Assembly: GCF_000166335.1 (NCBI RefSeq)
Contig: NC_014657.1
Coordinates: 124,001-188,000 of the forward strand
From: Caldicellulosiruptor owensensis OL
GTDB taxonomy: Bacteria > Bacillota > Thermoanaerobacteria > Caldicellulosiruptorales > Caldicellulosiruptoraceae
Direction: 5' to 3'
DNA length: 64,000 nt
Shown in pieces: positions 9,331-11,239 of the stretch. How positions within the stretch are numbered: the stretch's first letter is position 1; each line of letters begins with the position of its first letter. A program made the position numbers and the translations under genes. The notes below the pieces were generated by a model, which did not search any database, had not been told where the DNA came from, and worked only from the letters and a program-made list of their open reading frames with translations.

Positions 9331-9358
9331 GATACTTTCAAAATCTCAAAAAGTATGT

Positions 9359-9515
9359 TATAATATTAACAAACTAAACATTTGCTCCTGACTTAGAGGG
9401 CAAAATGGCCTGATAAGGAGGGGATTGGATTGAAAGCAGAAAAAATAAGGCTTGTATCCACCTCTTTTGTTTAAAAAGGTTAAAATAAAGTCAGGAGAGG
9501 TGGATTTATTTTTTT
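9359..9515 (+). promoter_or_regulatory. Structured leader / attenuator before the hydG operon
   Basis: A TATAAT box (9359-9364) suggests a start near 9371 and a leader of about 165 bases. Three pairings compete. A terminator hairpin is formed by 9456-9465 with 9496-9505 (10 bp), followed by a T-rich tract (9506-9515). A perfect 10-bp long-range stem joins 9385-9394 with 9488-9497, overlapping and disrupting the terminator. A short local stem joins 9385-9389 with 9416-9420. This is the layout of a transcription attenuator or riboswitch. I cannot match it to a known class. Confidence 0.6.
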
Positions 9516-9536
9516 AGAAAAAGGAGATGCATTTTT

Positions 9537-9782
9537 ATGGAAAGACGAATTGGGGTTATTGGGATTGTAGTTGACAACAGAAAAGAAGTTGCAGATAAGC
9601 TCAACAAGATCCTAACTGAACATGGGGATATTATTGTTGGAAGGATGGGTATACCATATAAAGAAAGAGGACTTTGTGTGATTTCGCTTATAGTTGATGG
9701 AACAACTGATGAGATTGGTGCGCTCACAGGAAAGCTTGGGTCTTTGAGCGGTGTTAAGGTAAAAAGTGCTCTTACTAAATAA
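9537..9782 (+). CDS. TM1266-family iron-only hydrogenase system putative regulator
   Basis: An 81-residue ACT/ferredoxin-like-fold protein: a beta strand GVIGIVVD, a helix with KEVADKLNKIL, strands around IIVGRMGIP and LCVISLIVDG, and a second helix TDEIGALTGKLGSL. The family takes its name from Thermotoga maritima TM1266 and commonly sits beside [FeFe]-hydrogenase maturase genes. Its biochemical role is not established as far as I know; a ligand-sensing function is inferred from the fold. Ribosome site AAGGAG about 10 bases before the ATG. It is followed within about 25 bases by hydG, so the two form an operon behind the structured leader. Confidence 0.85.
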   Translation: MERRIGVIGIVVDNRKEVADKLNKILTEHGDIIVGRMGIPYKERGLCVISLIVDGTTDEIGALTGKLGSLSGVKVKSALTK

Positions 9783-9805
9783 TAAGTTTGGAGTGTGATT
9801 TTGAG

Positions 9806-11239
9806 ATGTTTAGAAAAGATGAATGGGAAAGAGCTGAGTTTATAAATGACCAGATGGTCTATGATATCCTTGAAGAGGGGAACAAAAATGTTGATAGAGC
9901 GGAAGAAATAATTGAAAAAGCTTTGCAGCTAAATGGACTTGAGCCTCGAGAGGTTGCAACACTTCTTTATATAGAGGACAAAGACCTTTTGGAAAAGCTT
10001 TTTAAGGCAGCAAAACAGGTAAAAGAGAGGATTTATGGCAAGAGAATTGTACTTTTTGCACCTCTTTATATCAGCAACTTTTGTGTAAACAACTGCCGAT
10101 ACTGTGGCTATCACAGGTCAAATACAAAGATGAAAAGAAGAAAACTTACAATGGATGAAATACGAAGAGAAGTTGAAATAATTGAGTCTCTTGGGCACAA
10201 AAGAATTGCGCTTGAACTTGGTGAAGACCCCAAAGAAGCGCCAATTGAATATGTAGTAGATAGCTTAAAAACAATATATTCGGTATATAAAGAAAAAGGA
10301 AACATAAGAAGGGTGAACGTCAATATCGCTGCAACAACCATTGAAGAATATCGAATGCTAAAAGAAGCAAAAATAGGCACATATGTACTTTTCCAGGAAA
10401 CATACCACAGACCAACATATGAATATATGCATCCGGAAGGTCCAAAATCAGATTACGACTGGCATGCAATGGCAATGGACAGAGCAATGCAGGCAGGAAT
10501 TGATGATGTTGGGCTTGGAGTGCTCTTTGGGCTTTATGACTATAAATTTGAGGTTGTTGGGCTAATCTTGCATGCAAAGCATCTTGAAGAAAGGTTTGGA
10601 GTAGGACCGCATACAATCTCTGTGCCAAGGATTAGACCTGCTGAAGGTGTTGAGGTGACAAAAGAAAGGTATCCTTACCTTGTTTCTGATGATGAATTTA
10701 AAAAGATTGTTGCTATAATTCGGCTTGCTGTGCCATACACTGGCATGATTTTATCTACCCGTGAAAGACCAGGTTTTAGAGAAGAAGTAATTGACCTTGG
10801 AATATCTCAAATCAGTGCCGGGTCTTGTACAGGTGTTGGTGGCTACACACTTGAATACGAAGGGAAATCCACAGGTGATTTAGATGAAGATCTTGCACAA
10901 TTTGAAGTAGGAGATAAAAGAAGCCCAGATGAGGTAATAAGGACGCTTTGTGAGGCAGGTTATATTCCAAGCTACTGCACAGCATGTTATAGAAAAGGAA
11001 GAACAGGAGATTTGTTTATGCAGTATGCAAAGACAGGTGATATTCAGGACTTTTGCACACCAAATGCACTTTTGACTTTTATGGAATATTTAGAAGACTA
11101 TGGGTCTGAAAAGACAAAAGAGGTGGGAAGACGGTTAATATATGAGGGTTTAAATCAAATAAAAGATGAAAGAATGCGCAAAGAGACAGAAAAAAGGCTT
11201 GAGATGATAAAAAGTGGAGTAAGAGATTTGTATTTCTAA
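9806..11239 (+). CDS. hydG: [FeFe]-hydrogenase H-cluster maturase HydG (radical SAM tyrosine lyase)
   Basis: About 477 residues, cytoplasmic. HydG cleaves tyrosine and builds the CO- and CN-bearing iron synthon of the H-cluster. The radical-SAM cysteines are C93-x3-C97-x2-C100 (CVNNCRYC). The C-terminal cluster motif is CTACYRKGRTGDLF followed by a third Cys in DFCTP, which distinguishes HydG from ThiH. The length is normal. The start is set at ATG 9806 (MFRKDEW); the upstream TTG at 9788 has no good ribosome site. HydE, HydF and the hydrogenase are not in this window. Confidence 0.93.
   Translation: MFRKDEWERAEFINDQMVYDILEEGNKNVDRAEEIIEKALQLNGLEPREVATLLYIEDKDLLEKLFKAAKQVKERIYGKRIVLFAPLYISNFCVNNCRYCGYHRSNTKMKRRKLTMDEIRREVEIIESLGHKRIALELGEDPKEAPIEYVVDSLKTIYSVYKEKGNIRRVNVNIAATTIEEYRMLKEAKIGTYVLFQETYHRPTYEYMHPEGPKSDYDWHAMAMDRAMQAGIDDVGLGVLFGLYDYKFEVVGLILHAKHLEERFGVGPHTISVPRIRPAEGVEVTKERYPYLVSDDEFKKIVAIIRLAVPYTGMILSTRERPGFREEVIDLGISQISAGSCTGVGGYTLEYEGKSTGDLDEDLAQFEVGDKRSPDEVIRTLCEAGYIPSYCTACYRKGRTGDLFMQYAKTGDIQDFCTPNALLTFMEYLEDYGSEKTKEVGRRLIYEGLNQIKDERMRKETEKRLEMIKSGVRDLYF

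Follow-up and report, generated by a model that had tools for sequence, protein, structure and literature searches.

The TM1266-hydG gene pair of Caldicellulosiruptor owensensis OL is preceded by a structured leader whose core hairpin represents a class of cis-acting leader RNAs that, judged by sequence comparison, is widespread and absent from Rfam. We analysed this leader in a window of 64,000 nt (NC_014657.1, positions 124,001 to 188,000), to which all coordinates in the leader refer. The unlisted class probably acts as an OFF switch on genes for [FeFe]-hydrogenase maturation, a judgement that leaves the nature of the sensor aside. A preliminary description of the same DNA had proposed an attenuator- or riboswitch-like leader for H-cluster maturation, and the comparative evidence presented here supports that proposal; from the pairings predicted in these leaders we infer that they regulate, and that they do so in the OFF direction.

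Promoter and alternative folds of the TM1266-hydG leader

The genes behind the leader, both on the plus strand, encode an 81-aa TM1266-family protein (9537–9782; TIGR03959, 119.2 bits with a cut-off of 60.8) and the [FeFe]-hydrogenase H-cluster maturase HydG (9812–11239; TIGR03955, 656.9 bits), with the hydG start codon assumed near 9812 and a further in-frame TTG upstream at 9788. A second TM1266-like protein with 39% identity is encoded elsewhere in the same genome (G000:C1:1464607-1464822), as in every other Caldicellulosiruptor genome searched; no motif match was found at this second locus (L002) in the window's genome, G000.

The putative promoter (9336–9364, plus strand) has a weak −35 element, TTTCAA (9336–9341), a 17-nt spacer and, at 9359–9364, the TATAAT box that had been noticed earlier. 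The −10 region, TATAATATTAACAAA, is kept in nearly all of 12 Caldicellulosiruptor species, one of which (L007) has TACAAT. It is overlapped by a Rex operator-like palindrome, ATGTTATAATATTAACAA (9355–9372, plus strand), with one mismatch to TTGTTANNNNNNTAACAA; matches to TTGTTANNNNNNTAACAA with two or fewer mismatches occur in the window at the frequency expected by chance. The first base of this site lies 182 bp before the TM1266 ATG. In C. bescii, the homologous two-gene unit is reported to have a Rex site 181 bp ahead of its ATG, within the set tested by gel shift, and to show a log2 change of only −0.21 to −0.27 upon deletion of rex (PMC6391272). So small a change leaves room for a further level of regulation.

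None of 200 dinucleotide shuffles folded as well as the leader itself (z = −2.96). Its core motif (9385–9425, plus strand) is a pseudo-symmetric hairpin, CCUGACUUAGAGGGC-AAAAUG-GCCUGAUAAGGAGGG, interrupted by two U·G/tandem-GA internal loops; it scores 33.5 bits with our covariance model R3. The pairing register is CCU-GA-CUUA-GA-GGGC...GCCU-GA-UAAG-GA-GGG, with helices at 9387–9389/9420–9422, 9392–9395/9414–9417 and 9398–9401/9408–9411. A helix between 9385–9389 (CTCCT) and 9416–9420 (AGGAG) had been suggested instead; the two segments are complementary, but the conserved pairing is the tandem-GA register, with which we replaced that helix. In other species, the flanking pairs, outermost and innermost, exchange C-G with U-A and G-C with A-U, and since the CTCCT/AGGAG helix does not predict these exchanges, they fix the register.

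Downstream lies an intrinsic terminator hairpin (9456–9505, plus strand; arms 9456–9469 and 9492–9505), followed in the sequence by a T-tract at 9506–9515 (plus strand). The terminator was correctly recognized in the preliminary description, which understated its stem as 10 bp (9456–9465/9496–9505 plus T-tract); it comprises 14 bp, including two U·G pairs. The long-range stem reported there is indeed a perfect 10-bp helix and joins CTCCTGACTT (9385–9394, plus strand) to AAGTCAGGAG (9488–9497, plus strand), the latter overlapping the 3′ arm of the terminator. To this outer antiterminator helix we add a further exclusive helix, absent from the earlier account, between 9415–9424 and 9457–9467 (AAGGAGGGGA/TCC-A-CCTCTTT, with one bulged A). 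Its 5′ strand, AAGGAGGGG (9415–9424, plus strand), is the 3′ strand of the core hairpin, the inner antiterminator strand and a ribosome-binding-site-like sequence in one. The predicted ON fold is nested, with 9385–9394/9488–9497 outside and 9415–9424/9457–9467 inside. With the terminator just complete, the best fold resembled the ON state at −39.7, against −39.5 for the fold constrained to OFF; the gap of 0.2 kcal/mol makes the two equal within error, for energies computed at 37°C and hosts that are thermophiles.

All 12 Caldicellulosiruptor genomes searched have the leader before TM1266, in each case with the core motif. The stretch from CCTGACTTAGAGGG to GCCTGATA-GGAGGGG and both terminator arms are nearly invariant across the 12 species, and the intervening segment is variable. 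Over 17 alignment pairs, 97% of the terminator cells were paired; the first eight pairs of the long-range stem were kept in 12 of 12 species, except the outermost, missing in five. Because both helices hardly vary within the genus, a covariation test there is neither passed nor failed.

Covariation and distribution of the core hairpin

In its general form, the motif joins two similar YCUGA-N4-RAGG strands into a hairpin through their mutually complementary N4 segments; the covarying 4-bp helix has the same internal loop (U·G plus tandem GA) on either side. A covariance search of related leaders, which had been proposed as a check, found that the core hairpin covaries and recurs before maturation genes. 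Model R2, built from the 12 Caldicellulosiruptor leaders alone, matched the plus strand immediately before TM1266 in several further genomes, among them those of Caloramator, Thermobrachium and Maledivibacter, and a descriptor scan detected the motif before 18 of 81 TM1266 genes compared with two matches in 617 kb of control sequence. TM1266 leaders then served to train model R3, whose alignments are biased towards the model structure. In alignment A3 (24 sequences), 98.7% of the cells were paired, compared with 80.4% after shuffling; as 18 of the 24 rows had been picked with a complementarity requirement, two further covariation tests were run. Among 56 matches at loci outside the training set, aligned by fitting to R3, 96.2% of the cells were paired (76.6% when shuffled), and both sides of a pair had changed 112 times (29.9 when shuffled). 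When a sequence-only regular expression without any demand for complementarity was used, 28 of 43 distinct N4 pairs were fully complementary; in 5000 shuffles, full complementarity was reached by 3.9 pairs on average and by 12 at most.

The loops are symmetric and bulge-free in alignments A3 and A4, lacking the 3-nt bulge beside tandem G·A that marks a kink-turn. Three leaders contain tandem copies of the motif (L212:481-565, L215:2973-3058 and L249:1452-1538). In L083, L099, L113, L237 and L249, about 14–21 nt before the core, there is a further hairpin whose stem is longer and bears a single CUGA/RAGG loop; such an upstream hairpin was found in 8 of 83 leaders, compared with 0.02 expected by shuffling.

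Searching the 398 genomes of the phylum sample with R3 gave 58 places at E ≤ 0.01, the E-values of such custom models being rough. Fifty-seven were classified, and 51 of these lay before TM1266 (26), hydG (13), hydE (5), hydF (3) or the gene for an ECF transporter S component (4); four were unrelated and two ambiguous. At the ambiguous place L193/L286, a transposase-like ORF lies between motif and hydF, in L286 as if an insertion had split the leader from hydF. A second sample of 291 genomes gave 28 places, 23 of them before maturation-related genes as judged by reading, including one (L269) whose orientation was assigned from a poor regular-expression match. In four of the 23, the gene is aspA with hydF behind it, and in two of these four the order is aspA-hydF-hydG-hydE. 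In a Mesoaciditoga genome (Thermotogota), the motif precedes both hydF, with aspA next to it, and hydG. AspA can supply ammonium for the dithiomethylamine ligand of the H-cluster (PMC11736057), so its inclusion makes biochemical sense.

Genes for ECF S components (PF12822) stand directly behind the motif or TM1266 in L190, L195, L197 and L216 and in L252, L254 and L256, and the substrate of such a transporter could hint at a ligand. By eye, TM1266 is followed behind the motif by an ABC-type substrate-binding-like lipoprotein in L235 and L238, and L238 also has a permease-like ORF. No motif was found before TM1266 at the Thermoanaerobacter TM1266 loci; other genomes of the same class carry it before hydG, with TM1266 elsewhere. 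Matches at L188, L204, L210, L213, L264, L270 and L275 were unrelated and treated as false positives. We also rejected a structural [FeFe]-hydrogenase operon as a target (L261/L282), as the large subunit there is best described as a NuoG/formate-dehydrogenase-like fusion and not HydA; the motif-like match itself (L282:6006-6050, 30.4 bits) precedes a NuoE-like gene, with the fusion further down. An Auribacterota locus (L130) that looked motif-like by eye had no R3 score and is not claimed.

At gathering threshold, none of the 4227 families of Rfam 15 matched the leader, either in the window or at 11 + 20 related loci, so the match to a known RNA family that would have spoken against a new class did not appear; the window leader gave no Rfam T-box match either. 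Relaxing the limit to E ≤ 10 for the window leader brought up nothing convincing, and weak matches below gathering (PyrG leader, SpF36, PyrR) were judged to be chance. The words hydrogenase, hydG, iron-sulfur and maturase were not found in the main text of the structured-RNA surveys searched, a set outside which the 2017 survey of 224 candidates falls, and a keyword literature search of incomplete coverage returned no RNA element for these genes. Leader-RNA control of H-cluster maturation, unfamiliar to the author of the preliminary description, was found neither in Rfam nor in the literature searched.

Predicted expression platforms

Outside Caldicellulosiruptor, 60 motif/terminator pairs were examined, many of them related in sequence; in 36, among them L247, L112, L103 and L105, the 3′ strand of the motif pairs with the 5′ arm of the terminator at a shuffle p ≤ 0.05. 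The remaining 24 miss this threshold. The terminator finder chose a wrong hairpin for at least one leader of Caldicellulosiruptor. In 11 terminator-less leaders, before hydG, hydF or an ECF gene, no more than about 35 nt separate the motif from the start codon, and the RAGG strand is at or adjoining the ribosome-binding site. The leaders thus combine, as riboswitches do, a covarying core upstream of related genes with a predicted, mutually exclusive expression platform. Pairing with the terminator arm and overlap with the ribosome-binding site both suggest that formation of the hairpin should turn expression OFF.

During transcription, the core hairpin with its two YCUGA-N4-RAGG strands would form first. 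If stabilized, it would keep both strands unavailable and let the downstream terminator form, or, in a leader lacking a terminator, would cover the ribosome-binding site. If the hairpin is not stabilized, its 3′ strand could pair with the 5′ arm of the terminator and transcription would continue; in Caldicellulosiruptor, the 5′ strand would additionally pair with the 3′ arm.

Candidate sensors and comparison with known systems

Our leading guess for the sensor, still a tentative one, is TM1266 itself, binding the pseudo-twofold hairpin possibly together with a cofactor-related ligand. Proteins of this family (TIGR03959) may be PyrR-like RNA-binding regulators whose gene often opens the operon, directly preceded by the regulator's own target; with the same reserve we suggest that they bind the identical hairpin before the other maturation genes. 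In the phylum sample, HydG was found in 212 genomes, TM1266 in 199 and both in 178. All 49 genomes in which the motif precedes a hyd-related gene had TM1266, compared with 178 of the 212 HydG genomes (Fisher 8e-5), a figure no more than suggestive, as these are counts uncorrected for phylogeny and R3 had been built on leaders of TM1266; counting only motifs before genes other than TM1266, it was present in 23 of 23 (p 0.03). As expected of a protein-dependent attenuator, the candidate trans-acting protein thus occurs wherever the RNA does, which makes TM1266 a candidate RNA-binding partner. Conversely, the hydG upstream regions of 19 genomes lacking TM1266 (20 leaders), the only region this comparison covered, gave no convincing motif and a best score of 10.9 bits; of 20 TM1266 leaders that the strict search had not detected, one scored 26.8 bits and several 13–17 bits. 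The locus L180, with one motif before TM1266 and a second between TM1266 and hydG, also fits TM1266 as the sensor.

A pseudo-twofold RNA would suit a symmetric oligomer, and the TM1266 crystal structure 2nzc has four chains. The protein is distantly like NikR, with R4, G35, R36, G38, P40, G65 and G68 nearly invariant among 123 distinct sequences. We know of no RNA binding by this fold, and TM1266, long filed as a "putative regulator" and with a solved structure, has to our knowledge no known job. In its full form, to which we give slightly less credence, the idea is that TM1266 is a sequence-specific, ACT/NikR-C-like RNA-binding protein that responds to the state of H-cluster assembly by clamping the hairpin, thereby turning off hydE, hydF, hydG, aspA, transporters and itself.

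Close behind comes a direct small-molecule or metal riboswitch, in which the hairpin would bind, without any protein, a ligand linked to H-cluster assembly or to what supplies it; we regard this as possible, if somewhat less so. The compact conserved loops, forming two identical 3 × 3 internal loops, the tandem copies in several leaders (L212, L215 and L249) and the use of terminators in some leaders and ribosome-binding sites in others as expression platform would all be in keeping with a riboswitch, and targets including ECF S components (PF12822) and aspA are what metabolite control would predict. However, no Rfam riboswitch matches the motif, and a direct riboswitch does not predict TM1266 in every motif-bearing genome.

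Ribosome-mediated attenuation was suggested by a leader ORF with a TTG start, (M)KAEKIRLVSTSFV (9430–9474, plus strand), that ends just past the 5′ arm of the terminator. In Caldicellulosiruptor, its translation would cover this arm and cause read-through, with the hairpin gating the ribosome-binding site of the ORF; we consider this unlikely. The ORF is open in 12 of 12 species, from an in-frame start behind a strong ribosome-binding site, 6–9 nt downstream of AAGGAGGGG, to a conserved TAA/TGA right at the terminator arm, with the ending STSF[GVD]*. Such an ORF arises in about 6–13% of composition-shuffled segments per species, figures that, for 12 related species, are not to be multiplied naively, and pairing in the terminator and antiterminator is likewise enough to keep STSF conserved. 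Reading the leaders of other genera, we saw no leader ORF as a general feature: an ORF overlapping the terminator, as in leader-peptide attenuators, is found in Caldicellulosiruptor and not across the class, so this would be at most a lineage-specific layer. The ORF at 9430–9474 may still couple translation to antitermination.

It is equally improbable that another RNA-binding protein uses the hairpin or that the hairpin simply serves processing or stability control. Proteins commonly bind hairpins that contain tandem GA pairs, but we found no such protein, and the conserved alternative pairing with terminators argues for attenuation rather than processing or stability. A DNA operator followed by an ordinary, unregulated terminator is very improbable: although the motif as DNA is a direct repeat (CTGA-N4-AAGG) and Rex is reported to bind this promoter in C. 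bescii (PMC6391272), the N4 segments are complementary to each other and covary, the window motif lies downstream of the promoter, and the motif has its alternative pairing with terminators.

If the leaders act as proposed, an RNA element common to hydE, hydF, hydG, aspA, TM1266 and transporter genes would define a maturation regulon and offer a concrete hypothesis for the job of TM1266. A ligand of the leader could point to the metabolite or metal that limits H-cluster assembly, and the leader would be a handle on biological hydrogen production.

The NiCo/czcD riboswitch class is a metal-related lead for an iron enzyme system. It forms a four-way junction, whereas the leader motif is a single unbranched hairpin that has no Rfam match. 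OFF riboswitches of the SAM-I and FMN classes share with the leader a conserved core and a terminator/antiterminator or ribosome-binding-site platform; the leader, however, falls outside all Rfam families at gathering. Rex control in C. bescii concerns the same two-gene unit but acts at the DNA level, and the passages of that study consulted mention no leader (PMC6391272). The role of aspA in H-cluster ligand synthesis (PMC11736057) explains why it would share an RNA element with hydE, hydF and hydG; neither "regulat" nor TM1266 occurs in that paper.

The pyr attenuators bound by PyrR (RF00515) differ in sequence and loops, the Rfam match being at chance level (17.4 bits, gathering 54). We know of no relation between TM1266 and PyrR. 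The likeness lies in the predicted logic, as hairpin formation blocks an antiterminator in both, and in the arrangement, as the target precedes the gene of the candidate regulator itself and recurs inside the operon (L180).
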